Source: a virus. From it: 23,537 nt of DNA. Positions 9,562 through 22,703 of the stretch are shown one piece after another. The DNA lies in IMG/VR virus record IMGVR_UViG_3300029267_001875, positions 1 through 23,537 of that record; one strand, given 5' to 3'. The stretch's first letter is position 1, and each line of letters opens with the position of its first letter. Both the position numbers and the translations under genes were made by a program. Below the pieces are notes generated by a model. It saw only the letters and a program-made list of their open reading frames with translations. It was not told where the DNA came from and made no database searches.

Positions 9562-10758
9562 ATGCCTATTGTTGTCGAACACCAGCCAGCCGGGGTCGCC
9601 GTGGGATTGGCGGCGTATGCGAGTGGCGTTGGAAACGCCCGGGAGCGGTGGCGTAAGCAAATGCTCGACCGTCTCGCGGAACAACAGGCCCAGGAACGGG
9701 AGATGGACTTTCGTCGCGAGATGCAGGAGGATCGCTTCGAGTTCGAGGGCATGTTGGCGGGAGAGCGAATGGCGTCCGATGAAGGGCTCCAGGAGGCAAT
9801 GTTCAGGGAACGCCGGGAGGAAAGCGACCTGGACGCACGGCGACGAAGGGCGGACTGGCGTCGTCGCGAGGCCGGGTCGATCACGGAGGACAGTCTTCTC
9901 AGCGACCGGAACAAGGAGCGTGAAAGGCAGATTCTGGACGAGATACAGGAGATCGACGGCGATCGGTACGAGACTCCCGAAGACAAGCAGGCTGCTATCG
10001 AAGCGCTCCAGGAAGAGCGCCGCCGTCTTCACGAGGAGAGTCCGCGAAAGCCCACCTTGGAAGAGGAAATTGCCGAGAGAACTAAGAACTACCCGGACTG
10101 GATGAAGGACCTCCCGTGGAACCTGAAGGACGGCGTCCTCAGCTTGCCCAGCAACATGCCGGACTCGCCCGAGGAACTTCAGCGCGAGCGAGACGAGAAG
10201 CAACGCCAGGCCCAGTACGATGAGGATATCTTTCAGTGGGAGGCGGCCGAGAAACAGTGGGAGGATGCCCGGGACAAACGTCGGCGATACGAGGACTGGT
10301 TGTGGACGCTTCCGAAAAACGAGGGCGCGAGCTTCGACGAAATCGATGCCCAGGTCGAGGAGAGGTATGGGCCGCTCGGGGACAGACCTAGACCCCCGCG
10401 TCGGACGTCGATGGGGCCGGGGGCGTGGAGTGTGACGCGGGGTGCCGCGGTCGCTATGGCGGAGGGGTTTGGAGGGTTTGGGCCGACGAGGCCACAGGAA
10501 GGCCCCGAGGGCGCGCCTCCAGTGGAGCCTGAGCAGGTAGAGCCTGAGCAGCAGGACGTGAATGAAGTCGTTCCGCTCAGCGCCGAGGAGCTACGGAACC
10601 GTTTCAGGGAGACGAATAATGCATATAGAAGACCTGTGACGAGCAGTGTCACGGGCACGTCCCAGCAAGCTGCACCACTAACCCGGGCGGAGTATGAGGC
10701 TTTGCCGTCCGGTGCAATCTTTGTTGACCCGAACGGAGTACGGAGGAGAAAGCCATGA
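9562..10758 (+). CDS. Charged helical internal virion protein candidate
   Basis: 398 residues; ATG 9562 follows a GGAGATA element at 9551. After a short hydrophobic start (VAVGLAAYASGVGNA) the residues from ~25 to 255 are a highly charged helix (ERWRKQMLDRLAEQQAQERE and many Glu/Arg pairs), likely coiled coil. A Pro/Glu-rich linker follows at ~290-335. The C-terminus has LTRAEYEALPSGAIF followed by DPNG and a basic tail, an ending I recall from phage proteins encoded next to ejection proteins. It lies immediately before the giant polyvalent protein, whose ATG overlaps its stop region, so the two are probably co-packaged in the head and ejected together. No enzyme motif is seen. Confidence 0.6.
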   Translation: MPIVVEHQPAGVAVGLAAYASGVGNARERWRKQMLDRLAEQQAQEREMDFRREMQEDRFEFEGMLAGERMASDEGLQEAMFRERREESDLDARRRRADWRRREAGSITEDSLLSDRNKERERQILDEIQEIDGDRYETPEDKQAAIEALQEERRRLHEESPRKPTLEEEIAERTKNYPDWMKDLPWNLKDGVLSLPSNMPDSPEELQRERDEKQRQAQYDEDIFQWEAAEKQWEDARDKRRRYEDWLWTLPKNEGASFDEIDAQVEERYGPLGDRPRPPRRTSMGPGAWSVTRGAAVAMAEGFGGFGPTRPQEGPEGAPPVEPEQVEPEQQDVNEVVPLSAEELRNRFRETNNAYRRPVTSSVTGTSQQAAPLTRAEYEALPSGAIFVDPNGVRRRKP

Positions 10759-13700
10759 GCCGGGTGCAAGACGAGTGGTGGCTGGAGGCTCCAGTAGTCG
10801 AGAATGTCGCTGACGAGTGGTGGCTGGAGGCTCCTGTTGTTGGTGATATGGTCGAGCAGCCGAAGCAGCCTCCCCCACCCCGGTCATTCATCCAACGCGG
10901 CATGGACCACATGCGCGATACGGCCGTGGTGACCGCCAAGGGAGCACTCGGCGTGCCCCAGGCGATCACGGGCATTGCTGACATGATACCGATTACCGAA
11001 GCGATCCCAGGGCCTCCGGGCTTGAAGAGTGTCGCCAAAGCGGCTGCAACGCAAGCCGGGCTGCCCGTCCATGGCTGGCCTGGATGGATGCAGGAGAGGC
11101 TAGGAATCGACTACGAGGGGGCGCAGCAAGTTCTTCACAATGCGTACAGCGCCGAGACACAGGCGGCCCATCGGAACGTGGCTGATGCGGAGGGGGTGCT
11201 AGGTAAGATCGACGCGGCGCTACGAAACCCACGCGCGATTGCCACGACGATTGGCGAATCCATCCCGCTTATGGCCGCCGGTGGTGCTATCGGTCGTGCG
11301 CCCGCGCTGGGAAAATACGGCTATGCCATTGGGGAAGGGCTGGTGTCGGCTGGCTCTGGGGCGGAGCAAACCCGAGCCGAAACACCGGGCGGACTCTTGA
11401 GCGGAAAGCAAGCAGCCATACACGCCGCGAGCGGAGGTCTGACGGGGGTGGTGGGCGTCTTGGGTAGTAAGCTGGCTTCCAGGCTGGGGATTGAAGACAT
11501 CGATGTCTTGATGGCCGGTGGCGCCAGTGATCCGGCGAAGCGCAACATCCTAATCAAGACGTTGGCGGGAATGCTGGTCGAAGGTGGGGCCGAGGAGGGG
11601 CCCCAGTCCATTCAGGAACAGATCGCGCAGAACTTAGCCACGGGCAAGCCATGGTATACGGGCTGGGATCAGGCTTGGGTGATGGGGACGATAACGGGCG
11701 GTGTAATGGGTGGTGGGACAAACCTGATGACCAGCTTGGCCGATCTCCCCCACACTCCCACTCGCAGGGAATGGGCCAAGGCGGTGTTCGGCGACATTTC
11801 CAGGTACAGGGAGGCCCCGAGTAGAAAGGTACGACGAGAACAGTTCAAAGCCGCGAAACAGGAGGCAGCAAGCCGTGTACGAGTTGACGCCCCAGCAGCA
11901 AGCCGAACTGGAATGGATCGAGGAGTTGTCCCGGCGGCAAACGAGGGAAATGTTCCTGCACGCCCTCCGGTCACGCCAACTGAAGAGGCTGGCCAACCAT
12001 CGGGCGAAGAACGTGGTGCTGAACCGGCGGATGCTGGAGTCGAACCCGAGGGACGGACGGGAGTAGCTGAAAGGACACGGGTAGAGAAACAGGTCAAGGG
12101 CGTCTTTGGGGAGGAGGAGGGGGCTGCCGGCATGGCCCTCATGGACGCCCACGCAGGCGTTTGGGCGAAGGCCACGGGACGGTCGGCGGATGAGTGGTTC
12201 AGTAGGGTTGCCGCAGTCGAGAAAGGCCAAGAGGACGATGTGTCGGAGACGGCGCTTCTACACTCCGCTTTCCACGGCAGCCCGCACAAGTTCGACAAGT
12301 TCACGCTGGATAATATCGGGACCGGCGAAGGAGCCCAGGCGTATGGTTGGGGGCTGTACTTTGCGGACAGTGAGTCGGTAGCGCGGTTCTATCGCGATAA
12401 GCTTGGGGGCGGATGGCTGCTGGACGGGAAGCCGATTGCGGAGATGGCGCTAGACAGGGACACCCTGTCGGAACTCAACAGGGCTAGGGCGTTTGTTGGC
12501 AAAGACGAGACGATTGATGATGCGATCAAGCGTGTACGCCAGGAACGCAAGGAACGCCAGAAGGCGGAACGCAGCGGGGAGGAGGGGCCCAGTGGGTGGA
12601 CTGAAGATCTACTGGCGGCCGAAAAGGCGATGAAGAAGTATCGGTCGCGGCTGACCCGCAGCAAGGGTAGTCTCTATAAAGTCGATCTTGCCCCTTCCCA
12701 GGAGGAGTACCTGCTATGGGACAAGCCGCTGAGTGAGCAGAGCGAGAAGGTCAAAAAAGCGCTGCGCGAAGTGTTTCCTGATGGTTCCGGAATAGACAAG
12801 GCTTTTCTTGCCAAGCAGCCTGAGGCGAGTAGAAAGTGGTGGGAGGCTCAAAAGACTTATCTCGAGGGCGTGTGGGGACAGACTGGAGAACAGTTTTACA
12901 CAGGCCAAATAAACAAGTTCTACGAGACAGTTGAGACGGAGGTAAACGCGAAGTCTGCCGCAGAGTGGGCATCCAAGTCGCTTCACAAAGCCGGCATCCG
13001 CGGCATTAAGTATGCCGACCAGGACAGCCGATTCGCTCCCCCAGGGCAAATGCGTTATCGGGTTCGATGGAGCGAGGACGGCACGAAGCCGGAAGTCTTC
13101 GAGGTGGCGACGGGCCAGGCACTCGACAGGCAGTTTGCCACATTCGCGGAAGCTGACGAGTGGATCGCCAGCCAGGAGCAGGAGTCGGACCGCACCCACA
13201 ACTACGTCATTTTCGACGACGCTGATATAGCGATTGAAGAGGTCTTGGAGTCTCGCCGGCGAGGCAGGGTCACGGGTGCCGTGCAGTTTGCCGAAGATGG
13301 CCGAGCAACGATCGTCGCCTTCCAGCGTGGGGACGTAGCTACCCTGGTGCATGAGGTAGGGCACATCTTTCGGCGGTCCATCGGTGAAGTAGACGCGGAC
13401 CTGCTATCGCGGGCCGAGAGGGACCTGGGAGTCACTGACGGCAACTGGACTGTTGAGGCTGAAGAGGCGTTCGCCGGTGGGTTCGAGCGGTATCTGCGTG
13501 ATGGAAGGGCGCCGACCGCGACATTGACGAAAGTGTTCGAGCAATTGCGGGATTGGTTGCTGGCTATCTATTCAGCCATCAGGGGGACGGCTCTTGAGCG
13601 AAACGTGTCGCCGGAGTTGCGTGGCGTGTTCGACCGAATGCTGGGCGGGAAAGCGGCCCCAGCGTCCCCTCAGACGCCTCCGCCGCTCCCTGGGGTGCCG

Positions 13701-16700
13701 GGCGGCCCTGGAACGGTCTCGACCCAGAACGCCTACACGCAGGCCCAGAGGGCCGTTCACGGGATGAACCCCAAGGCCCCCGTGGTCACCCGCGAGTGGG
13801 TCAAGCTTCACGGCCAGGCCATGGCTATGTCCGACGCGGAGGTGACGAAGGTCGTTGACGAGTTGCGGAATGACCCGAAGTCAAGCAGCGACCAGCGAGA
13901 ATTTGTGCTCCTGCGACGGATGAACGAAATTGAGAATCAACACGCCAGTGCCGTTTCGAGCGGTGACATGCCAGCAGCAGCAGCAGCGGAAGCGCAGTTG
14001 GTGGACATCTACACGATAGCCGAAAAGGTCGGCTCCGAGGAAGGCCGGGCTCTCAACGCTCGCAAAGCTTGGATAAGGGACGACAATTCCCTCTTGGGGT
14101 CGATTCGACGGGCCACGAAGAAGAACGGGCGTCCACTCACGGAGATCGAGCGTCAACAGTTGGTTGAGCGCAGGCAGGAACTGGACGCCCTGGAAGCGGC
14201 ACTCGCGGAGAGGGAGCGTCAACAGGTTGAGGCTGCTGCCGAGCGGACGGTGTCCGAGGCGGTGGCCAAGCGGCAGGAGACGCTCAAGAGCCGGTACGAG
14301 AAAGTGGTTAACGCCATTCTCGACGCCTATGGGATCACGGGTGTCACTTTCGCTAACGTTGAGGCGGAGGCCAAGCGACGGGTGAGTGAGGAGGCTGAGG
14401 CGGCCAAGGCGTACAACTATGCTTACCGACAGGCTGCCAAGGCCACGGGCTTGTGGCCCAAGGTAATCGACAAGATTGAGGACGGTCAGCTTGTGGCCCC
14501 TAGTGGACGGCCGTATGACATCAACGAATATGGTCGCCTGGACGAAAAGGCTCCCATGCTGGCAAGGGAGTACCCGGAACTTGGGATTCAATCCACGCCA
14601 GCCGATGCGGAGCAGACGGGCAACGAGGCGGCTGACCTCGTGAAGGTGCTCAAGCGGGGAATCCGCCACGTTCCCGGGTGGCATGAAAAGCTGGACGAGG
14701 TTGCTCACGCGCTGGTGGCCGAGCGGGGCCGGGAGTTGCCCCTGGGTTTCAGCCTGGAACGGGAGGTGACGCAGGCGGACAGGGACTTCGAGGGCAGGGG
14801 TCTCGATGAATCTGAATCCAGCACCGTCGACGATGCCGGCTTCGACTGGGGGACGGGCACACAAATGCCTCCAAGGGGTGGCAAGCCTAAGCCACTCACG
14901 GCGAAGGAGAAGGCCGAGCGGGCCGGGCAACGGCTCAAGGAAGCGTCAGCGGAGCTCCTAGACTCCTTGGTCGCCCTGGGACCGTTGAAATTTGCCGAAC
15001 CGGCGGACACGGTTCGCAGGTACGATCGTTTCCAGGCAGCGCTGGCTGACGCGGCTCTTGCCTGTATCGAGTACGGCATTCGCAGCTTCAACGCGGCAGT
15101 GGTACGGCTTACGGCTGACATGGGGCGGCGCATGACGCCGATGGTCCGCGAAGCTTTTCGTAAGGAATGGGACGCCCTTGTCGGTGAGGGGGTGATTCCG
15201 TCGCCCGTAATCGACCCGAACGACGACAGCGAATTCAGTGAGCACGCCCAGAAGGTACTCAGTTGGGTCGTTCAGTCTGGAGTGACGGACACGCAGCAGG
15301 CTCTTGACGAGGTCCATGCGGAGCTACAGACCATTCGGCCTAACATCACCCGCGAGGAGTCGGGGAAGGCGGCGTCTGGCTACGGGCAATTCAAGCCACT
15401 AAACAAGGATGCGGTGTCTCTGACAAGGCGTCGAATCAGGGGCGAGCTTCAACAGCATTCCAAGATAGACGACCTGGAGAGGGCCATTGCGGAAGCTCAG
15501 CGACTCAGGGCCGAGGGAAAGTCAGAGGCCGAGATAGCGGAGGCAATCAAGGAGTTCTTGCCGAAGAAGACCGGTGTCGAACGACGCACACCAGAACAGG
15601 CCGAGCGGGAACTGATCTCGCAGGTCGAGGACCTGAAGAAGGAGATTCCCGTTTCGACGGAGGGGACCGAACGGCAACTCAAGACCCGCCTGGCGACCGC
15701 CAAGACGGCCGTGCTGAACCAGATCGAGAACCTGGAAGCCGGTAGGCCGGGGAGAAAGCCGCGAACGCCTGGACCAACTGATGCCGAGCTTGAGGCTCAC
15801 CGGAAGCGGCGGGACAAGCTACAGGCGGCCTACGACGAGATGAACCCGCGGGACCGGAAGAAACGCACGCCGGAGCAGGAAACCAAGGCTACGTTGCGGG
15901 GTCTGGACCGGGCAATCGAGGATCTGGAGGGGGACTTGGGGCGGGGCTACGTCGGTCGCCCGGGCAAGCCGGTGTCGCGAACCAGCCCGGAAATCGACGC
16001 CAAGCGGAAGAAACTGGCGCGATTGAAAGAACTGCGCGAGGAGATACGCGAACTGGACCCCGAATTTCAGAAGGACGAGTATGCCCGGCGTCTGGCGGCC
16101 CGGAAGCAGATGCTGAAGCGGAAGCTGGCGGCCTACGAGGACCGGTGGGCGCGCAAGGATTTCGCGAAGAAGCCCGTGAGGAGGTCTCCGGAGGATGAGG
16201 AGACGTTGAGGCTCCGGCATCAGATCTCGGAAGCCAACAAGCGCCAGCGCGCGGCGGAGGACCGAATTGCAAGGGCCAACCGGCTGATGCGAGAGAAGAT
16301 TGCCGTGGTGCCGCTTGACGTGTCCCGCACCATAAAGAGTGTCTGGTCATCTGTCGATGCGTCATTCCTTTTGCGGCAAGGGGTCTTGGTCGCGGCGGGG
16401 CATCCAATCAGGGCCGTGCAGCAGCAGGGGCGAAGTCTCCGCGCGGCTCTGTCCGACAAGGAGTTCTTCGCCTTGCAAGAGGGGATTGCGGCTCGGGACA
16501 ACGCGAGGTCGGGGCTCTACGGCCGGGCAAAGCTTGAGCTACTTGATATCTCCGGCCCCTTAGTTTCTCGCTCGGAAGAGTACCAGTCCACGTTCGTCCA
16601 AAAGATTCCCTATATCGGGGGGGCCATTAAGGCTTCCGAGCGCGCCTTCGTGGCCCAGGGCAATCAGATGCGGGCGGACTTGTTCGATTCCATGATTGCG

Positions 16701-17516
16701 ACGATGGCGATGGACCCGGGGAACGTAAGCGATGCCGAGGCGAAGGCGATTGCCAATTACGTAAACATAGCAACCTGGCGGGGGAATGTGGCTGGGTTTG
16801 AGCAAACGGCTGCGCAACTGGGTGCCGTGATATGGACTCCTCGCGGGGTGGTCTCACGCTTCCAGTACCTTTTTGCTCAACCGCTCTTGTGGCCGGCGTT
16901 CAGGGGCCGACTGTCCGGGCGGGCGGCGAAGGTCATTGCATGGGAGTACGGCAGGACCTTAGCGGGAATGAGCATCTTCTACGGCACGTCGGCTGCGATG
17001 CTTCTCGCGGCCTTTGGGACCCCAGGGGACAACGAGGAGCGGGACAAGTGGAATATCACGTTCAACCCGTACAGTCCGGACTTCGGAAAGGTGCGGATTG
17101 GACGCACGCGGATCGATCCGATGGGTGGTCTGTCGCAGGTAACGAGACTGACTACGCGGGAGTCCACCAACGCCGTCAACGCCCTCTATCAGCTTTTCGG
17201 AGGGAGGCCAAGCAAACAAGCGAAGGCGGACATGAAGGACACTTTGTCGATCGCTGGAAGGTTTCTTCATCAGAAGTTCGCACCGGCGGCATCGATGGTC
17301 ACGGAGATTATGACCAGTGAGGACTATGACCGCGAGCAGGTCACCTTGGGGGGGGTAGCCGCCAAGGCCGTGCGTCCAATCATTTTTGAGGACGTCTACA
17401 CGAGCATCAAAGAGCATGGGGTCCCTGAAGGTATGGCATTGACGGTCCTGGCCATATTCGGGATGGGGCTCACCTACCACGAGCCTGAGCGGCCACCCCC
17501 CCAGAAGTGGCGATAG
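10755..17516 (+). CDS. Giant polyvalent internal/ejection protein: ART-like, zincin and C-terminal LPD domains
   Basis: 2253 residues. The N-terminus has a tandem 14-residue repeat with DEWWLEAPVV twice. Residues ~40-345 match a conserved phage region with Gly-rich, membrane-active helices (IPLMAAGGAIG, TGVVGVLG, TITGGVMGGGTNLM). A disordered linker (~370-440) covers a nested ORF. Residues ~500-830 are ADP-ribosyltransferase-like, as found in polyvalent proteins (HGSPHKFDKF at H507, AYGWGLYFAD, then GIRGIKYAD and NYVIFDDADI). Residues ~850-960 are a zincin, HEVGH at 866-870 with a likely third ligand in EEAFAGGFERY (E904 or E911). Long coiled coils fill ~1100-1840. Residues ~1850-2250 match the large polyvalent-associated C-terminal domain (FGKVRIGRTRIDPMGG), with one hydrophobic segment near 2070. 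Known polyvalent proteins travel with the DNA and protect it or modify host targets; that role is inferred here. Confidence 0.8.
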   Translation: MSRVQDEWWLEAPVVENVADEWWLEAPVVGDMVEQPKQPPPPRSFIQRGMDHMRDTAVVTAKGALGVPQAITGIADMIPITEAIPGPPGLKSVAKAAATQAGLPVHGWPGWMQERLGIDYEGAQQVLHNAYSAETQAAHRNVADAEGVLGKIDAALRNPRAIATTIGESIPLMAAGGAIGRAPALGKYGYAIGEGLVSAGSGAEQTRAETPGGLLSGKQAAIHAASGGLTGVVGVLGSKLASRLGIEDIDVLMAGGASDPAKRNILIKTLAGMLVEGGAEEGPQSIQEQIAQNLATGKPWYTGWDQAWVMGTITGGVMGGGTNLMTSLADLPHTPTRREWAKAVFGDISRYREAPSRKVRREQFKAAKQEAASRVRVDAPAASRTGMDRGVVPAANEGNVPARPPVTPTEEAGQPSGEERGAEPADAGVEPEGRTGVAERTRVEKQVKGVFGEEEGAAGMALMDAHAGVWAKATGRSADEWFSRVAAVEKGQEDDVSETALLHSAFHGSPHKFDKFTLDNIGTGEGAQAYGWGLYFADSESVARFYRDKLGGGWLLDGKPIAEMALDRDTLSELNRARAFVGKDETIDDAIKRVRQERKERQKAERSGEEGPSGWTEDLLAAEKAMKKYRSRLTRSKGSLYKVDLAPSQEEYLLWDKPLSEQSEKVKKALREVFPDGSGIDKAFLAKQPEASRKWWEAQKTYLEGVWGQTGEQFYTGQINKFYETVETEVNAKSAAEWASKSLHKAGIRGIKYADQDSRFAPPGQMRYRVRWSEDGTKPEVFEVATGQALDRQFATFAEADEWIASQEQESDRTHNYVIFDDADIAIEEVLESRRRGRVTGAVQFAEDGRATIVAFQRGDVATLVHEVGHIFRRSIGEVDADLLSRAERDLGVTDGNWTVEAEEAFAGGFERYLRDGRAPTATLTKVFEQLRDWLLAIYSAIRGTALERNVSPELRGVFDRMLGGKAAPASPQTPPPLPGVPGGPGTVSTQNAYTQAQRAVHGMNPKAPVVTREWVKLHGQAMAMSDAEVTKVVDELRNDPKSSSDQREFVLLRRMNEIENQHASAVSSGDMPAAAAAEAQLVDIYTIAEKVGSEEGRALNARKAWIRDDNSLLGSIRRATKKNGRPLTEIERQQLVERRQELDALEAALAERERQQVEAAAERTVSEAVAKRQETLKSRYEKVVNAILDAYGITGVTFANVEAEAKRRVSEEAEAAKAYNYAYRQAAKATGLWPKVIDKIEDGQLVAPSGRPYDINEYGRLDEKAPMLAREYPELGIQSTPADAEQTGNEAADLVKVLKRGIRHVPGWHEKLDEVAHALVAERGRELPLGFSLEREVTQADRDFEGRGLDESESSTVDDAGFDWGTGTQMPPRGGKPKPLTAKEKAERAGQRLKEASAELLDSLVALGPLKFAEPADTVRRYDRFQAALADAALACIEYGIRSFNAAVVRLTADMGRRMTPMVREAFRKEWDALVGEGVIPSPVIDPNDDSEFSEHAQKVLSWVVQSGVTDTQQALDEVHAELQTIRPNITREESGKAASGYGQFKPLNKDAVSLTRRRIRGELQQHSKIDDLERAIAEAQRLRAEGKSEAEIAEAIKEFLPKKTGVERRTPEQAERELISQVEDLKKEIPVSTEGTERQLKTRLATAKTAVLNQIENLEAGRPGRKPRTPGPTDAELEAHRKRRDKLQAAYDEMNPRDRKKRTPEQETKATLRGLDRAIEDLEGDLGRGYVGRPGKPVSRTSPEIDAKRKKLARLKELREEIRELDPEFQKDEYARRLAARKQMLKRKLAAYEDRWARKDFAKKPVRRSPEDEETLRLRHQISEANKRQRAAEDRIARANRLMREKIAVVPLDVSRTIKSVWSSVDASFLLRQGVLVAAGHPIRAVQQQGRSLRAALSDKEFFALQEGIAARDNARSGLYGRAKLELLDISGPLVSRSEEYQSTFVQKIPYIGGAIKASERAFVAQGNQMRADLFDSMIATMAMDPGNVSDAEAKAIANYVNIATWRGNVAGFEQTAAQLGAVIWTPRGVVSRFQYLFAQPLLWPAFRGRLSGRAAKVIAWEYGRTLAGMSIFYGTSAAMLLAAFGTPGDNEERDKWNITFNPYSPDFGKVRIGRTRIDPMGGLSQVTRLTTRESTNAVNALYQLFGGRPSKQAKADMKDTLSIAGRFLHQKFAPAASMVTEIMTSEDYDREQVTLGGVAAKAVRPIIFEDVYTSIKEHGVPEGMALTVLAIFGMGLTYHEPERPPPQKWR
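10770..10834 (+). repeat. Tandem 42-nt repeat encoding DEWWLEAPVV twice
   Basis: A 23-base identical segment occurs at 10770-10792 and 10812-10834, 42 nt apart, so the protein begins with two copies of a 14-residue unit carrying DEWWLEAPVV. The core bases are identical while the flanks differ, which suggests a recent or selected duplication. Trp-rich acidic repeats at the front of an injected protein could be a packaging or scaffold-docking tag. Confidence 0.85.
11875..12066 (+). CDS. Nested 63-codon ORF in +1 frame inside the polyvalent gene
   Basis: GTG 11875 is preceded by a perfect AGGAGG at 11860-11865 with a nine-base spacer. The product begins VYELTPQQQAELEWIEELS and continues as a basic amphipathic helix (RSRQLKRLANHRAKN), stopping at TAG 12064-12066. 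By hand count about 54 of 63 codons end in G or C, against about 24 of 63 in the overlapping main frame, which there encodes only a low-complexity Ala/Pro/Glu linker. The ORF fits exactly between the membrane-active region and the ART region of the large protein. No family is recognised. It may be a real overlapping gene, or an older separate gene bridged when its neighbours fused. Confidence 0.5.
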   Translation: MYELTPQQQAELEWIEELSRRQTREMFLHALRSRQLKRLANHRAKNVVLNRRMLESNPRDGRE

Positions 17517-17535
17517 CCAGTCTTGCTTTCTTTCT
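17508..17535 (+). terminator. Weak candidate terminator after the virion module
   Basis: A short TGGC-GATA-GCCA hairpin (17508-17519) lies over the stop of the polyvalent gene and is followed by a pyrimidine-rich stretch (TCTTGCTTTCTTTCTC). The stem is only four base pairs and the tract is interrupted, so it would be inefficient. It overlaps the -35 of the next promoter. Confidence 0.2.
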
Positions 17536-17551
17536 CGGCGGGTGGTACTAT
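17523..17551 (+). promoter_or_regulatory. Sigma-70 promoter for a leaderless XRE gene
   Basis: TTGCTT at 17523-17528, a 17-base spacer and TACTAT at 17546-17551, with TG at 17543-17544 forming an extended -10. Transcription would start about seven bases on, at 17558, which is the A of the repressor's ATG. No ribosome-binding site precedes that ATG. Together this points to a leaderless mRNA. Confidence 0.7.
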
Positions 17552-17557
17552 ACACGT

Positions 17558-17854
17558 ATGACGAATCCCGCCCCGATAGAAGAAGACGAAGGCCAGATTC
17601 AAGAGTCTCTTGTGCAGACCTTCCGGGACAATGTCCAGTTTGTGCGGGACTACCGTGGATTTTCTCAATCTGAGTTCGCCCGTAGATTGGGCCGATCGCC
17701 TGGCTACGTGTGCGACATCGAACACGGCCGCCGTAGCCCAAATCTGACGACCGTCGCGCTGTTTGCAAAGGCATTGGGCATCGAGGCGTCTCTTCTTCTT
17801 TCCGAGGACGTCTCGCTCCTCGTGGACACGGCGCTCGCGTCCGAGCCCGAATAA
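17558..17854 (+). CDS. XRE-family HTH repressor (leaderless)
   Basis: 98 residues. I chose ATG 17558 rather than an in-frame start at 17507, because the promoter -10 ends at 17551 and the longer form would overlap the previous gene and add a hydrophobic leader not seen in repressors. Residues ~22-82 are an XRE/Cro-C1 helix-turn-helix: FRDNVQFVRDYRGFSQSEFARRLG, then SPGYVCDIEHGRRSPNLTTV and KALGI. The acidic N-terminal (residues 1-20) and C-terminal tails are unremarkable. It sits alone between the virion and recombination modules with its own promoter, so it probably controls the downstream operon promoter at 17890-17918 or host promoters. Leaderless translation suits early low-level expression. 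Confidence 0.8.
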   Translation: MTNPAPIEEDEGQIQESLVQTFRDNVQFVRDYRGFSQSEFARRLGRSPGYVCDIEHGRRSPNLTTVALFAKALGIEASLLLSEDVSLLVDTALASEPE

Positions 17855-17855
17855 G

Positions 17856-17879
17856 GGCGGATTTCTTTCACAATCCACC
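17856..17879 (+). terminator. Possible weak terminator after the XRE gene
   Basis: GGCGGATT (17856-17863) pairs with AATCCACC (17872-17879) with one C-A mismatch across an eight-base loop, right after the XRE stop. The following bases are pyrimidine-rich but not a T-tract. It may separate the repressor transcript from the next promoter. Confidence 0.3.
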
Positions 17880-17889
17880 TTCCTGTCCC

Positions 17890-17918
17890 TTGACCCTTTT
17901 CGGCAATTGTGGTAGTAT
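17890..17918 (+). promoter_or_regulatory. Sigma-70 promoter of the csrA-like/recombination operon
   Basis: TTGACC at 17890-17895, a 17-base spacer and TAGTAT at 17913-17918, with TG at 17910-17911 as an extended -10. It shares TGGTA[C/G]TAT with the XRE promoter. The predicted start is near 17925, giving a ~114-nt leader before the csrA-like ATG at 18039. Confidence 0.75.
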
Positions 17919-17924
17919 TCTCCT

Positions 17925-18038
17925 GCTGAGGACGTGACGGGTCGTGTGAGGCTAGGCTACGGAGTAGCTAGACGTCACGTCGGAAGGAACTCGCCCGGCT
18001 GAGCAAGACGCGAGGCCGGGCTGAAGGAGGGAACCGTA
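17925..18038 (+). promoter_or_regulatory. Structured leader RNA with GGA-triloop hairpin, candidate CsrA autoregulatory element
   Basis: An outer stem pairs GACGTGAC (17931-17938) with GTCACGTC (17974-17981). Inside it, CTA-GCTAC (17952-17960, bulged G at 17955) pairs with GTAGCTAG (17964-17971), leaving GGA (17961-17963) as the whole loop. A third stem pairs GCCCGGC (17993-17999) with GCCGGGC (18015-18021). GGA also occurs at 17930, 17982, 17986 and twice in the ribosome-binding site AAGGAGGGA (18024-18032). Known CsrA proteins bind GGA in hairpin loops and block the ribosome-binding site. Feedback by the downstream protein is therefore likely but inferred. Confidence 0.6.
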
Positions 18039-18410
18039 ATGCTAGTTCTTTCGCGCCGACGCGGCGAGTGGGTGACTGTCGAGGGCCCCTGCCGCGTCGT
18101 TCTGGTTTCTCTAAACGGCGACACGGCACAACTCGGCTTCGAGGCCGAGCGTTCCGTGACGATTCTTCGCGAGGAGGTGCCTCGACGGCCAGAACCGCTA
18201 AGCGATAACGACTTCAAGTACCCCGAAATGGCGAGGGTCCTTCAGGCCGTGCCCATGATTCAGTGGCGGCGTTGCTGGAAGTGTAATCAGGTGGACCTCT
18301 ATCGTGACAACATGCTGCCGGCGTGCCGCTGTCATGCGTGCGGGTCGGCAGACACTCGTATTATGCGGGAGGAAAGCGCCCTGCTGCATGGGAGGAAGGA
18401 TTCAGAATGA
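18039..18410 (+). CDS. CsrA-like RNA-binding protein fused to a C-terminal zinc ribbon
   Basis: 123 residues; ATG 18039 follows AAGGAGGGAA. Residues 1-47 match CsrA: MLVLSRRRGEWV at the front and VTILREEV at 40-47, keeping L4, R6, R7, R44 and E45-E46, the positions that bind GGA RNA in E. coli CsrA. Ordinary CsrA stops near residue 60. Here residues ~50-75 form a linker and ~79-101 a zinc ribbon: C79-W-K-C82 and C96-R-C98-H-A-C101-G. CsrA represses translation by covering ribosome-binding sites; the ribbon could add RNA, ribosome or protein contacts. It opens the recombination operon, and its stop overlaps the exonuclease start by ATGA. The CsrA half is secure; the function of the fusion is unknown. 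Confidence 0.8.
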   Translation: MLVLSRRRGEWVTVEGPCRVVLVSLNGDTAQLGFEAERSVTILREEVPRRPEPLSDNDFKYPEMARVLQAVPMIQWRRCWKCNQVDLYRDNMLPACRCHACGSADTRIMREESALLHGRKDSE

Positions 18411-19405
18411 GCGATGATTCAGAACGGGCCGCATGGCTTGCTGAAAGGGCGACCGGCATAGGTGGCAGCGATGCCGCCGCCGTTTGCGGGATGTCGCCGT
18501 GGAGTACCCCGCTGGACGTGTATATGTCCAAGGTCGGGTATCTCGACCAGGTGGGCCAAGGGCGAGATGACGAGACGACCGACATGCGGCGGGGTACGTT
18601 GCTGGAACCGGTGGTCCTCCAGATGTACACAGATGAGACGGGGAGGGTGGTCCGGACCCCGGAAAAGACCTACGTCAATCCAGAGCATTCGTTCGTTCGC
18701 GCGAATCTGGACGGAATATGCCTCGCGAACACGGTGGGGATTGAGGCTAAGACGGCTCGGAGACGACAGGGGTGGGGCGAACCGTGGTCGGCTGAGGTTC
18801 CAATGGTCTATCTATTCCAGGTGCAGCATTACATGTTGGCGACGGGCTTGCAGGTGTTTCACCTGCCGGTGCTGTTCGGTGATTTCAAGTTTGAGATCTA
18901 CGAGGTCGAGGCGGACCGGGAGTTCCAGGAATTGCTCCTGGAGCATGAAGCCCGGTTCTGGGCGATGGTCGAGGCCCGCACGCCCCCGGAGCCAGTGAAC
19001 GATGCGGACGTATCGAAGCGCTGGCCGGTCAGTAAACCCGAGGGTCGCAAAGCAACTCAAGAGGACTTGGAGGTCGGCGGGCACTTGCTGGCCGTACGGG
19101 GCTATTTCAAGAACCTTGAGGCGGTGAAGAAATCTCTTGAGGCCGAGCTAAAGCGGTCCATGGAGGACGTCGAGGCGCTGGTCTGCGGCAATGAAACAAT
19201 CTGCACCTGGAAGACCGCCAAGGGAACGACTCGATTCGACGCCAAAAAGTTTCGGGCCGACCACCCGAAGCTGTACGAACAATACAGTTACGAGTCCGCC
19301 CCGAGTCGGACGTTTTTGTTCAAGGAGAAAGCCAAATGTCTGGAGATCATGCGACCGCTGCTACAGGAGAACCTGTTGCCGGGCAGGAAGTTGATCGGGC
19401 AGTAG
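18407..19405 (+). CDS. YqaJ/lambda-exo family phage exonuclease
   Basis: 332 residues from ATG 18407, overlapping the csrA-like stop as ATGA, with GGAGGAAGGA upstream; the open frame back to 18323 lies within that gene. Family motifs are clear: GIGGSDAAAVCGMSPWSTP (residues 17-35), RGTLLEP with E67, RANLDG with D102, the ExK pair E113-A-K115, and QVQHYMLATG (138-147). These form the PD-(D/E)XK nuclease core that degrades the 5' strand of double-stranded DNA ends. The C-terminal third (~220-332) is helical and charged. The gene for a probable annealing partner follows two genes later, so the pair likely forms a recombination system for genome end repair or concatemer formation. Confidence 0.88.
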   Translation: MSDDSERAAWLAERATGIGGSDAAAVCGMSPWSTPLDVYMSKVGYLDQVGQGRDDETTDMRRGTLLEPVVLQMYTDETGRVVRTPEKTYVNPEHSFVRANLDGICLANTVGIEAKTARRRQGWGEPWSAEVPMVYLFQVQHYMLATGLQVFHLPVLFGDFKFEIYEVEADREFQELLLEHEARFWAMVEARTPPEPVNDADVSKRWPVSKPEGRKATQEDLEVGGHLLAVRGYFKNLEAVKKSLEAELKRSMEDVEALVCGNETICTWKTAKGTTRFDAKKFRADHPKLYEQYSYESAPSRTFLFKEKAKCLEIMRPLLQENLLPGRKLIGQ

Positions 19406-19413
19406 GAGGCGAG

Positions 19414-19623
19414 ATGACCATAGCGGAGAATGTAGAGAGTGCTCGCTTGGCGAGAGACATGTCACAGGCGCGATTGGCCATGACTCTGGGTGTGGACGAA
19501 AACTACGTCCATTGCCTGGAGAGAGGCGACGTGAAGCCGTCTGGCTTCATGGCCACTCGGCTTGCGGATGCACTGAGAGTCGAGCGGGAGCGGTTTATTG
19601 AGGACTCTACTCTGGCGCGTTAG
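19414..19623 (+). CDS. Small XRE/Cro-like HTH protein
   Basis: 69 residues. ATG 19414 sits seven bases after AGGAGG; the open frame to 19336 lies inside the exonuclease gene and is rejected. Almost the whole protein is one helix-turn-helix: ENVESARLARDMSQARLAMTLG, VDENYVHCLERGDVKPSG and ATRLADALRV. It is shorter than the other XRE protein and could be a Cro-type partner to it. It lies between the exonuclease and the annealing-type protein, next to a 145-nt gap that could hold an operator. Confidence 0.78.
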   Translation: MTIAENVESARLARDMSQARLAMTLGVDENYVHCLERGDVKPSGFMATRLADALRVERERFIEDSTLAR

Positions 19624-19768
19624 GACAGTTGCACGATAACCAAATGAGGCTGGACGGCGTGAAGCCTACCAGTCGTGGCCAGCGCTTCCGGGTAGCACGC
19701 CCGGACAGAGGCCGGAATCCTAACGCGACCAGATTTATTTTGCCCTTGGGAAAACGGAGAACTACGCG
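19624..19768 (+). promoter_or_regulatory. 145-nt non-coding gap with several hairpins
   Basis: This is the longest gene-free gap inside the right-hand operon. AGGCT (19647-19651) pairs with AGCCT (19663-19667). TCCGGG (19687-19692) pairs with CCCGGA (19700-19705), and the same TTCCGG can alternatively pair with CCGGAA at 19712-19717, so two mutually exclusive folds exist. GGA occurs at 19652, 19703 and 19714 and in the ribosome-binding region (CGGAGA, 19755-19760). It could be a leader controlled by the csrA-like protein or an operator region for the XRE protein. I find no clear promoter or tRNA. Confidence 0.35.
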
Positions 19769-21160
19769 ATGAGTAAAGACAAGCTATCTACGGAAATCGC
19801 TCCCCAGCAGGGCTCTGGCGGTTTCATGACGCAGGCCCGGGACATGGGCATACCGCCCTCCGTTTTGGCCGAGCAACAGCGGGCCAAGACCGAGATTGAG
19901 GCGGCCCTTACTGTTGCCGCGTCCATGCCGCGGGACGAGAAGCGAGCCATGGATGCTATCCTGGTCAGTTGCCAGAGGGAGGGTCTTGCTGCCAAGTCTC
20001 AGTACCAATACAGCCGTGGTGGGACGGACATATCCGGGGCGAGCATCGTTTTGATGGAAGCGATTGCCCAGCGGTGGGGCAATATCGATTTCGGCTTCCG
20101 CGAGTTGTCCCGGTATCCCGCGAGGGGCAAGGAGCCTGGCCAGTCGACGGTTGAAGCCTATGCGTGGGACCTGGAGAGCAACACACGGCGCAAGGTTCAG
20201 TTCACCGTCGAGCACGCGATGAAGGCAAAGGGACGGGTAAAATTGCTGACCGACCCTCGGGACATCTACGAATACGTGGCCAATCAGTCGCAACGGCGTG
20301 TGCGAACTTGCCTGGAGAACATCATCCCCCGGGATATCGTGGAGGCGGCATGTGAGCAGTGCAACGAGACGCTCAAGGCCGAGATCAAGGACGTGAAGGA
20401 ATCGACTCAGAAGATGCTCCAGGCGTTTGCTGATCTCGATGTCACGCAGGCGATGGTCGAGGCGCGGATTCAGCGGCATCTTGAAGCCATCACTTCGGCC
20501 CAGATTATCAGCCTTCGGAAAATCTACACTTCCATCAAGGACGGCATTTCCTCGGCTGAGGATTGGTTCGATATGAGTGAGGCGGAGGCGAAGCAGGAGA
20601 AGACGACGGTAGCTGACAAGGCCAAGGAGGCGATGCGGAAGAAGGCCGACGAGACTGCACCCAAACAGGCCAGAGATGAAACACCGTCGTCACCGCAAGC
20701 CGCGGAGCGGGAGCACATCAAGGTGGCCATAGAGCAGGCGTGCGACGAGATGGGTAAGGTGGAGACCATCGACGAGATCAAGGCGGTAGACTCGACTTTT
20801 GCCGCCCGCGAGGATGTGACCGACGCGGCCAAGCGGCTCGTACACGCCACCGCTGGGGCCAGAATCAAGGAGTTGGAGTTGTTTCCCTCTCCTCAAGAGG
20901 AGCCCACGTCCGAGGCAAAGACCGAGAAGCCAGAGCCCGAGAAGACATCCACGAAGCCCAAAGAGGAGCCCGACACCCCCGACTGCGCCGAGCAGGTGGC
21001 ACAGTGGCTCGTGGACCTCGAGGAAGTCGAGACGATTCGTGGTCTCAAGCAGGCTAGGGAGGGTATTCCGGCGGCGTGGCCGGAGGATGCGAAAGAGATG
21101 ATCCGGGCCAAGATCAACACGCGAATTGACAAGCTCCGGGGCACCAAGGACGGACAATAA
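19769..21160 (+). CDS. Phage recombination protein, probable ssDNA-annealing partner of the exonuclease
   Basis: 463 residues. Residues ~35-210 match a phage family I recall next to exonucleases: AMDAILVSCQREGLAAKSQY, RGGTDISGASIVLMEAIAQRWGN, DFGFRELSR, VEAYAWDLESNTRRKVQFTV, LLTDPRDIYEYVANQSQRR and LENIIPRDIVEAA. The order resembles annealing proteins of Erf/RecT-like modules, though it is not RecT itself. Residues ~225-250 are helical. From ~325 two diverged helical repeats appear, sharing (K/E)VETI-x2-(I/L)K, joined by a Pro/Glu/Lys/Thr linker (~395-420). Start ATG 19769 follows CGGAGA. Annealing is inferred from context and recalled similarity, not a visible catalytic motif. Confidence 0.7.
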   Translation: MSKDKLSTEIAPQQGSGGFMTQARDMGIPPSVLAEQQRAKTEIEAALTVAASMPRDEKRAMDAILVSCQREGLAAKSQYQYSRGGTDISGASIVLMEAIAQRWGNIDFGFRELSRYPARGKEPGQSTVEAYAWDLESNTRRKVQFTVEHAMKAKGRVKLLTDPRDIYEYVANQSQRRVRTCLENIIPRDIVEAACEQCNETLKAEIKDVKESTQKMLQAFADLDVTQAMVEARIQRHLEAITSAQIISLRKIYTSIKDGISSAEDWFDMSEAEAKQEKTTVADKAKEAMRKKADETAPKQARDETPSSPQAAEREHIKVAIEQACDEMGKVETIDEIKAVDSTFAAREDVTDAAKRLVHATAGARIKELELFPSPQEEPTSEAKTEKPEPEKTSTKPKEEPDTPDCAEQVAQWLVDLEEVETIRGLKQAREGIPAAWPEDAKEMIRAKINTRIDKLRGTKDGQ

Positions 21161-21178
21161 ACGAGGAGGGTTAACGAC

Positions 21179-21310
21179 ATGAAAATAGAATGCCCCCAGT
21201 GCGGTAGCAAACGCACTTACGAGACGGAGGTGGACCGGTGCGAAGCGGACGATTATTATCTATGCGACGACTCACCGGCAGGCTATCCCACTGGGGAGGT
21301 GGAAACATGA
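21179..21310 (+). CDS. 43-residue zinc-ribbon protein
   Basis: ATG 21179 follows GAGGAGGG (21163-21170) with eight bases between, a strong ribosome-binding site. The product starts MKIECPQCGSKRTYETEVDR and has C5-x2-C8, C21 and C29, consistent with a single zinc-binding ribbon half or a zinc-ribbon with an atypical second pair. The rest is acidic and the stop overlaps the ASCH start as ATGA. Small single-domain zinc proteins are common in phages; a role as a nucleic-acid or protein adaptor is inferred. Confidence 0.65.
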   Translation: MKIECPQCGSKRTYETEVDRCEADDYYLCDDSPAGYPTGEVET

Positions 21311-21726
21311 GGGCACTGACGATCTCTCAACCATACGCCAGCCTCATTGCCGATGGCCTTAAGCCGGTAGAGAACCGGCGATGGCCGACGAAGTATCGCG
21401 GGCCGCTCGCGATCCATGCGGGGAAAGGGACGCAATACCTGGACGGTGCCGAATTGGCGCAGTACCCAACGGGGGCGGTGATTGCAACGTGTCAATTGAT
21501 CGCGTGCTTCAGCCGGGATGAGGCAATAGTCCTGGCCGATCAGAAGACGCTGTCCCGGGAACTCATGGACCTCGGGTGGGAATTGGGGCATATGCTCTGG
21601 CTGTTGGGCCACGAGCATTGCGAGGGGCCGTTGTGTTGGGTGCTGTCGGATGTGGCGAAGCTGCCAGAGCCGATTCCCGCAAGAGGCCGGCAAGGACTGT
21701 GGGAGTGTAGGGAGGTAGCTACGTGA
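21307..21726 (+). CDS. ASCH-domain protein
   Basis: 139 residues from ATG 21307, overlapping the small zinc protein by ATGA. The N-terminus is the ASCH/PUA-like signature: MRALTISQPYASLIADGLK, then PVENRRWPTKYRGPLAIHAG and K at the end of the strand. The middle holds VIATCQLIACFSRDEA and the end WVLSDVAKLPEPIPARGRQG, as in full-length family members. ASCH domains bind nucleic acids and some hydrolyse modified nucleosides. The gene lies directly before a C5-cytosine methyltransferase and overlaps it by GTGA, so a link to modified DNA or RNA is possible but unproven. Confidence 0.85.
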   Translation: MRALTISQPYASLIADGLKPVENRRWPTKYRGPLAIHAGKGTQYLDGAELAQYPTGAVIATCQLIACFSRDEAIVLADQKTLSRELMDLGWELGHMLWLLGHEHCEGPLCWVLSDVAKLPEPIPARGRQGLWECREVAT

Positions 21727-22703
21727 GCTATCACTATTACAACGACAACGATCTATTCATGGTTGAATGGCTCGTTACTTCAATCGCCACCGACGAACTC
21801 CAGCGGGGCATCGTCGACGGCCGCAGTATCACGGAGGTGCTTCCCGATGGGCTCAACGCATTTAGACAGTGCCACTTCTTCGCTGGAGTCGGTGGCTGGC
21901 CACTCGCCCTGCGATGGGCAGGATGGCCGGAAGATCATCCTGTCTGGACCGGGAGTTGTCCCTGCCCGCCATTCTCATCGGCGGCTGCTACGCTCTCCCT
22001 CGCAGTCAACGGAGAGCGACGATGCAAATGGTGCGGAGGCAGAGAGCCTGGATTTATCGACGGGCCGAATTCCGTCATCGAATGGTTCGGGTGCGTCGGG
22101 TGTGGATGGTACGATACTCGACACCTCTGGCCTGAATTCTTGCGACTCATCAAGGTATGCCGGCCGGCGGTTGTCTTTGGCGAGCAGGTTAGCAGTCCGC
22201 TTGGCCGCCAATGGAACGCCGGAGTATACGCTGATTTGGAAGCGATCGGCTATCGAGTCCCTTGTGACGAGCAGGGGAATTATGAACTTTACGACCTGCC
22301 GGCTGCGGGCGTCGGCGCGCCGCACATCCGACAGCGGTTATTCTGGGTGGGTGTCGCCCACGGCTCGCGATCACAGTCGAGGAGTCAGGCCGCCGCGGCC
22401 ACAAGACACGGGAGTACCGCTGAGCCAGCAGGTTGGCATGATTGTCGAATCGTCGCCTGCCGAGACCTCGACAAGCAAGGGCGAAACAAACTCCGCCGTG
22501 TCCCCAGCCCTGAATCCAGCGTTTTCCCGCTGGCTCATGGGCTACCCCGCAAGCTGGGACCGCCTCTCGCCGAGCTGGGACAAGTGGGACTTCGCGCAGC
22601 AAGAGCTAACCGAGTCGGCCGACTGCGGGGATACGGAAACGCGATAGTACCGACGTTGGCAGCAGAATTCATTCGATCGTATATGGAGGCACGTAAACGA
22701 TGA
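21723..22703 (+). CDS. C5-cytosine DNA methyltransferase with zinc-ribbon insertion
   Basis: 326 residues from GTG 21723, which overlaps the ASCH stop, with GGGAGGT upstream. Motif I is FFAGVGGWPLALRWAGW (52-68). Motif IV is GSCPCPPFS with the likely catalytic C81; position 82 is Pro rather than the usual Gln. Motif VI is VVFGEQV (E154), motif VIII HIRQRLFWVG (R203, R205), and the end is RVGRLRGYGNAIVP (297-310). It transfers a methyl group to cytosine C5 for host-defence evasion. Between motif IV and HLWPEF is an insertion with C101-K-W-C104 and C124-V-G-C127, a zinc-ribbon-like unit in the catalytic loop. The 3' part overlaps a +1-frame ORF. Confidence 0.87.
   Translation: MSYHYYNDNDLFMVEWLVTSIATDELQRGIVDGRSITEVLPDGLNAFRQCHFFAGVGGWPLALRWAGWPEDHPVWTGSCPCPPFSSAAATLSLAVNGERRCKWCGGREPGFIDGPNSVIEWFGCVGCGWYDTRHLWPEFLRLIKVCRPAVVFGEQVSSPLGRQWNAGVYADLEAIGYRVPCDEQGNYELYDLPAAGVGAPHIRQRLFWVGVAHGSRSQSRSQAAAATRHGSTAEPAGWHDCRIVACRDLDKQGRNKLRRVPSPESSVFPLAHGLPRKLGPPLAELGQVGLRAARANRVGRLRGYGNAIVPTLAAEFIRSYMEARKR
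21847..22647 (+). CDS. Overlapping +1-frame ORF inside the methyltransferase
   Basis: 266 residues from ATG 21847, which has GGAGG at 21833-21837 with a nine-base spacer. The frame is open from 21763. It contains SLASRLAVRLAANGTPEY, LIWKR, RASARRTSDSGYSGW, SPTARDH and NPAFSRWLMGYPASWD, stretches I recall from hypothetical phage proteins that are themselves the alternate frame of C5 methyltransferases. In the last part (22540-22645) about 31 of 36 codons end in G or C, against about 19 of 36 in the methyltransferase frame. The first half is Ser-rich and less convincing. Either this is a real overlapping gene or a conserved shadow forced by the methyltransferase motifs. Confidence 0.4.
   Translation: MGSTHLDSATSSLESVAGHSPCDGQDGRKIILSGPGVVPARHSHRRLLRSPSQSTESDDANGAEAESLDLSTGRIPSSNGSGASGVDGTILDTSGLNSCDSSRYAGRRLSLASRLAVRLAANGTPEYTLIWKRSAIESLVTSRGIMNFTTCRLRASARRTSDSGYSGWVSPTARDHSRGVRPPRPQDTGVPLSQQVGMIVESSPAETSTSKGETNSAVSPALNPAFSRWLMGYPASWDRLSPSWDKWDFAQQELTESADCGDTETR

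Follow-up and report, generated by a model that had tools for sequence, protein, structure and literature searches.

In Escherichia coli, CsrA binds the leader of its own gene at four sites, one of which lies on the Shine-Dalgarno sequence, and on the glgC leader one CsrA dimer links the Shine-Dalgarno sequence to a site in a hairpin loop (PMC7652899). The preferred site is described as an ANGGAN hexaloop and the bridging range as 10–63 nt (PMC7652899). Besides these autoregulated leaders in bacteria, csrA genes are already known in phages; they were recorded in 30 of 2517 phage genomes (Pseudomonas RsmM type), and the role of the csrA genes listed in phages and plasmids was given as unknown (PMC7366521). 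Among the listed titles and abstract openings of open PMC papers, none described a phage operon of csrA and recE, and none a GGA-bearing leader before a phage csrA.

Here we describe a csrA-like gene in the window, that is, the whole analysed stretch of 23,537 bases from a virus record. The gene heads an operon with the exonuclease gene recE, and an original prediction had assigned its leader a layout for CsrA-type autoregulation. With a confidence just above even, we read this leader as a CsrA feedback site that forms the 5' untranslated region of the phage's csrA-recE operon.

A CsrA-family gene overlapping recE

The operon and its surroundings comprise the following features.

17507–17854, plus strand: gene for a Cro/CI-type HTH regulator, upstream of the leader (Pfam HTH_3, 2.9e-9; PHROG 1373)
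17890–17918, plus strand: sigma70-like promoter, TTGACC-17-TAGTAT with TG ahead of the -10 element, predicted start at about 17925
17925–18038, plus strand: 5' leader of the csrA-recE mRNA, delimited by promoter position and ORF start
18039–18410, plus strand: CsrA-domain protein of 123 aa, with a CsrA fold (about residues 1–50) and a C-terminal region with CxxC pairs
18407–19405, plus strand: recE (YqaJ) exonuclease gene (Pfam YqaJ, 9.9e-31; PHROG 434, 3.2e-79)
19769–21160, plus strand: gene for a PHROG 3657 protein after recE, in the same place in loci L002 and L016

The identification of the first gene of the operon as csrA-like was borne out by the Pfam CsrA profile (PF02599), which matched residues 1–48 with 43.4 bits against a curated cut-off of 27. 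The CsrA equivalog TIGR00202 scored 35.9 bits, below its cut-off of 70.1; the 123-aa protein is a member of the CsrA family and not a canonical CsrA orthologue. A monomer model built on 69 viral CsrA sequences contains five beta strands with pLDDT of 84–96 over residues 1–50, and the best solved-structure matches in Foldseek were RsmN/RsmF (best E 1.5e-3). Across the 69 sequences M1, L2, L4, R6, and R44 are invariant. L4 and R44, named as the most critical residues for CsrA RNA binding (PMC7652899), are thereby kept in the window's protein. The C-terminal half gave no confident model (pLDDT about 53–68) and no Pfam match. This Cys-rich tail (18183–18410) is fused to the CsrA domain and brings two CxxC-like pairs after residue 45, found among 121 CsrA proteins only in the window and in L224, whose CsrA is a different protein that also ends in a CxxC tail. 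Judging from the CxxC motif alone, the tail resembles a zinc ribbon and may bind zinc; a weak similarity to eL40 (E 0.39) was not used. Close relatives of the 123-aa protein were absent from the viral contig and phage collections.

The recE start overlaps the csrA stop (ATGA). The PHROG 3657 protein that follows occupies a possible annealing-protein slot; in locus L113, the gene after recE encodes a RecT-like annealing protein (PHROG 148, 1.3e-85). Inspection by eye also showed a small reading frame of Cro/CI-like HTH type at 19336–19623 (start tentative), which separates recE from the PHROG 3657 gene, and, at 10755–17516, a single ORF of 2253 residues whose product is probably a polyvalent virion-associated protein.

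By RecE, the window is closest to L016 (72% identity), on a contig binned as Planctomycetaceae, and to L002 (67%), a 52-kb virus contig. Both have a short CsrA gene directly upstream of recE and overlapping it, and L002 also carries a similar HTH gene upstream, ahead of an integrase gene. Since the closest RecE matches include the Planctomycetaceae-binned L016, the host of the window is likely a planctomycete. Searching 392 Planctomycetota genomes returned, besides the Planctomycetaceae assembly G013 that holds L016, only distant RecE matches, none with csrA. Besides the CsrA gene next to recE, the assembly G013 has four more that exceed the Pfam cut-off (L096, L102, L103, and L105). At the DNA level, the region 17300–21800 had no match in the phage collection.

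The gene order recurs. The RecE-similarity set of 92 loci, all with a RecE match, formed 66 clusters at 70% identity, 64 of which had at least 700 nt upstream; 6 of the 64 have a csrA gene in the 700 nt ahead of recE. This count is no census of phages, since all loci were retrieved by likeness to the window's RecE. The six are the window, L002/L016, L027/L029/L031, L033, L113/L114, and L115. An overlap of csrA with recE is present in the window, L002, L016, L113, L219, L221, and L033. Counted conversely, recE shares the strand of csrA in 18 of 100 csrA loci, with the recE start at most 400 nt downstream in 12 of them, though many of these had themselves been retrieved by RecE.

Promoter, leader and predicted fold

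The promoter match at 17890–17918 is the only one in 17300–19500 (shuffles average 0.7), and its predicted transcription start, about 17925, is the first base of the leader. The leader was predicted to fold into the elements below, all on the plus strand.

17931–17981: 5' structural domain, a 9-bp stem (17931–17939 with 17973–17981) around two hairpins (predicted fold, P 0.99)
17955–17969: GGA triloop hairpin, loop 17961–17963 (predicted fold, P 0.99)
17982–17990: GGAAGGAAC, with two GGAs, a near-copy of the Shine-Dalgarno stretch (8 of 9 positions)
17993–18021: third hairpin, without GGA (predicted fold, P 1.0)
18026–18034: Shine-Dalgarno stretch GGAGGGAAC, which contains two GGAs and is predicted to be open in at most 1.2% of structures

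The anatomy claimed for this leader, with three stems and six GGA motifs within about 110 nt, was confirmed; the GGAs lie at 17930, 17961, 17982, 17986, 18026, and 18030. GGA indeed forms a whole hairpin loop: about 99% of the predicted ensemble contains the triloop hairpin, one of the two inside the 9-bp stem, and this hairpin offers the one well-exposed GGA loop of the leader. The A of its ANGGA motif is predicted to be paired, and the probability of an open NNGGA is 0. The claimed overlap of the last GGAs with the ribosome-binding site also held, as they lie at -13 and -9 inside the Shine-Dalgarno stretch. This stretch is predicted to be closed in about 99% of structures even without protein. 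GGAAGGAAC and the Shine-Dalgarno stretch are predicted rivals for pairing with the start of the coding region (18045–18053), and the predicted shares of the two pairings vary with the chosen 3' end. The GGAs of the Shine-Dalgarno stretch lie about 40–48 nt from the upstream GGAs at 17982 and 17986 and 65–69 nt from the one at 17961.

The strongest competing explanation is an ordinary structured 5' untranslated region in G-rich DNA, in which the GGAs come from composition and the Shine-Dalgarno sequence and the encoded CsrA acts on other (host) mRNAs rather than on its own. Two chance tests on the leader agree with it: 24% of composition shuffles reach six GGAs (P 0.24), and a GGA loop on a stem of at least 5 pairs arose in 366 of 1000 conditional shuffles of the leader. 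Of all 114-nt stretches of the plus strand, 8.1% have six GGAs, and 48 of the window's 677 plus-strand GGAs can occupy a loop with a stem of at least 6 pairs. The four ANGGA motifs of the leader are scarcer by chance (shuffle P 0.013). Leader and start together (136 nt) have a folding z of -1.81, and the first 66 nt (17925–17990) reach -3.06, with 1 of 200 shuffles equally stable, which speaks against an ordinary leader. The 5' domain is structured beyond chance, and the GGA count and the single triloop by themselves are not above chance.

GGA hairpin loops in related csrA-recE leaders

The comparison with other leaders counted GGAs in hairpin loops of 3–8 nt, with GGAs at most 20 nt from the start excluded and with shuffles that kept the motifs in place. 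The tests were not blind, as their design followed a reading of the leaders of L016, L029, L113, and the window; membership of the csrA-recE group was fixed by gene order, not by the leader. Four chromosomal csrA leaders, leaders with an upstream stretch of less than 120 nt, and leaders that agreed at more than 80% of positions were left out, which kept 79; L027, L031, L114, and L164 were dropped as near-copies.

In the eight csrA-recE leaders, with stems of at least 4 pairs, 12 of 24 GGAs fell in loops against 5.3 expected (0 of 300 shuffles), as did 7 of 12 ANGGAs against 1.9 expected (0 of 300 shuffles). For the remaining 71 viral csrA leaders, the figures were 31 of 209 GGAs against 30.0 expected and 5 of 53 ANGGAs against 4.3. 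The excess of hairpin-loop GGAs is thus specific to csrA-recE leaders, which argues against an ordinary leader. It persisted without the window, at 6 of 10 ANGGAs against 1.5 expected (0 of 500 shuffles) and, for GGAs with stems of at least 6 pairs, at 5 of 20 against 0.95 expected (0 of 500). Three lineages, L016, L029, and L113, carry the excess; with the window, L029, and L113 all removed, the signal was weak (ANGGA 1 of 2, 122 of 500 shuffles; GGA with stems of at least 6 pairs 2 of 9, 35 of 500).

Across all 79 viral csrA leaders, the folding measure exceeds that of ORF leaders from the same loci (400 sampled from 676), and ANGGA is clearly enriched (1.62 versus 0.66 and 0.64), partly because of Shine-Dalgarno sequences. 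GGA hairpins as a general property of viral csrA leaders were rejected, as the folding measure of the 79 leaders did not surpass that of composition shuffles (P 0.15).

An ANGGA in a hairpin loop is present in L016, L029, L113, and L221 and missing from L002 and L219; in the window, the GGA is exposed and the A is paired. The triloop hairpin sequence itself occurs, among 233 loci, only in L001, which is the window. In L113 and L221, whose CsrA proteins are 82% identical, two hairpins are conserved together with their loop GGAs. L219 and L220 (about 2400–2500), with a CsrA 81% identical to that of L113, kept the stems and have ACGAA-type loops in place of the loop GGAs. They are a clear counter-example to general GGA-loop conservation, favour an ordinary leader, and may have lost the control or use the stems for another role. 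L113/L221 with the loop GGA and L219/L220 without it constitute matched natural variants for tests.

Also in favour of an ordinary leader, L002, L033, and L115 have no GGA loop hairpins and are without, or nearly without, GGA sites beyond the Shine-Dalgarno region; L162 has one weak hairpin. L002, the nearest viral relative by RecE, carries GGA at the Shine-Dalgarno sequence alone, and its missing leader may be due to the integrase gene directly upstream of csrA. Non-conservation of GGA loops among related phages had been named beforehand as grounds to refute the autoregulation; the loops turned out to be absent in some relatives and present in others.

A terminator-like hairpin with a perfect 11-bp stem and a run of six Ts ends just ahead of the csrA start in L029 (1181–1219), L031 (1584–1622), and L027. 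Its hexaloop is AAGGAC in L029 and ACGGAC in L031 and L027, both ANGGAN, and no Shine-Dalgarno sequence lies between the hairpin and the start codon; this could be a CsrA-controlled terminator. The stem shows one two-sided compensatory change (A-U to U-A), with all cells paired and the loop GGA kept. Two small alignments had one two-sided pair each, a result that shuffles reach in 164 of 500 (the three-row L027/L029/L031 alignment) and 179 of 500 cases. The L027/L029/L031 covariation is consistent with a conserved hairpin and is not proof of one.

Proposed feedback on the recombination module and known systems

For the proposed CsrA feedback, phage CsrA dimers would bridge an upstream GGA, in the triloop hairpin or in GGAAGGAAC, and the GGA-bearing Shine-Dalgarno stretch. 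Ribosomes would then be blocked at csrA, so that the protein would repress its own production. Translation of recE would fall with that of csrA by coupling, as the overlap of the two genes (ATGA) suggests. The GGAAGGAAC sites would fit such bridging better than the triloop, because they lie about 40–48 nt from the Shine-Dalgarno GGAs and the triloop 65–69 nt, for a range given as 10–63 nt (PMC7652899). The competition of GGAAGGAAC and the Shine-Dalgarno stretch for 18045–18053 may have a regulatory role as well.

The autoregulatory layout originally proposed has in its favour the CsrA domain with L4 and R44, the promoter, the GGA sites, the Shine-Dalgarno GGAs, and the loop excess in distant csrA-recE phages; it is weakened by the paired A of the triloop, by L002 with its Shine-Dalgarno GGA only, by the lost loop GGAs of L219/L220, and by a Shine-Dalgarno stretch predicted to be closed even without protein. 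The leaders of known-phage csrA genes, most of which have GGA mainly at the Shine-Dalgarno sequence (8 leaders), also point to an ordinary leader, an explanation that we hold to be possible and appreciably less probable than the feedback.

Less probable still is that the leader is read mainly by host CsrA, so that the CsrA status of the host sets csrA-recE expression or host CsrA is soaked up. The extra CsrA genes of G013, the assembly with the closest RecE match, would meet this RNA if the hosts are similar, while the window's host is itself deduced from RecE matches. At most about six GGAs, one of them well exposed in a loop, are few for a sponge, and no free sRNA end was found, as no terminator match was present at the 3' end of the leader. 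A CsrB-type sponge RNA was rejected for the missing terminator, the absence of any Rfam match in the window, and the lack of many exposed GGA loops; titration of host CsrA by the leader is possible.

That the 9-bp perfect inverted-repeat arms GACGTGACG/CGTCACGTC, just downstream of the -10 element and near the adjoining HTH gene, are a DNA operator for this regulator with the RNA fold incidental is very improbable, since the arms are 33 nt apart, have no other exact copy within the window, and leave the GGA loops of the other csrA-recE phages unexplained.

More tentatively, several phage lineages may, independently or anciently, have put CsrA first in an operon of recE and an annealase gene, with GGA-hairpin leaders letting CsrA meter the translation of recombination enzymes, which would amount to a post-transcriptional brake on viral recombination; in L027/L029/L031, CsrA may also control transcription read-through at the terminator-like hairpin. 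The recurrent csrA-recE operon with GGA-loop leaders gives the role of phage csrA a concrete, testable form, namely feedback on the recombination module.

Like the phage csrA genes reported earlier (PMC7366521), the window's gene is a CsrA-family gene in a phage. The csrA genes of phi297 and D14P belong to the early region, with nuclease and RecT genes 1.1–2.5 kb downstream, and the leaders of these two phages and of vB_Pae_BR228a lack the GGA hairpin-loop pattern; csrA is separated from the nuclease gene in phi297 and D14P, whereas it overlaps recE in the window. With the csrA leader of E. coli it has in common that several GGA sites precede csrA and that one set lies in the Shine-Dalgarno sequence; the window's leader differs in that it belongs to a phage, is followed by a csrA gene overlapping recE, and has CsrA binding that is proposed. 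GGA is exposed there in a triloop, whereas the preferred site is an ANGGAN hexaloop (PMC7652899). If CsrA connects an upstream hairpin GGA to the Shine-Dalgarno stretch as proposed, this would resemble the bridging on the glgC leader, with the difference that the target in the window would be the regulator's own operon.
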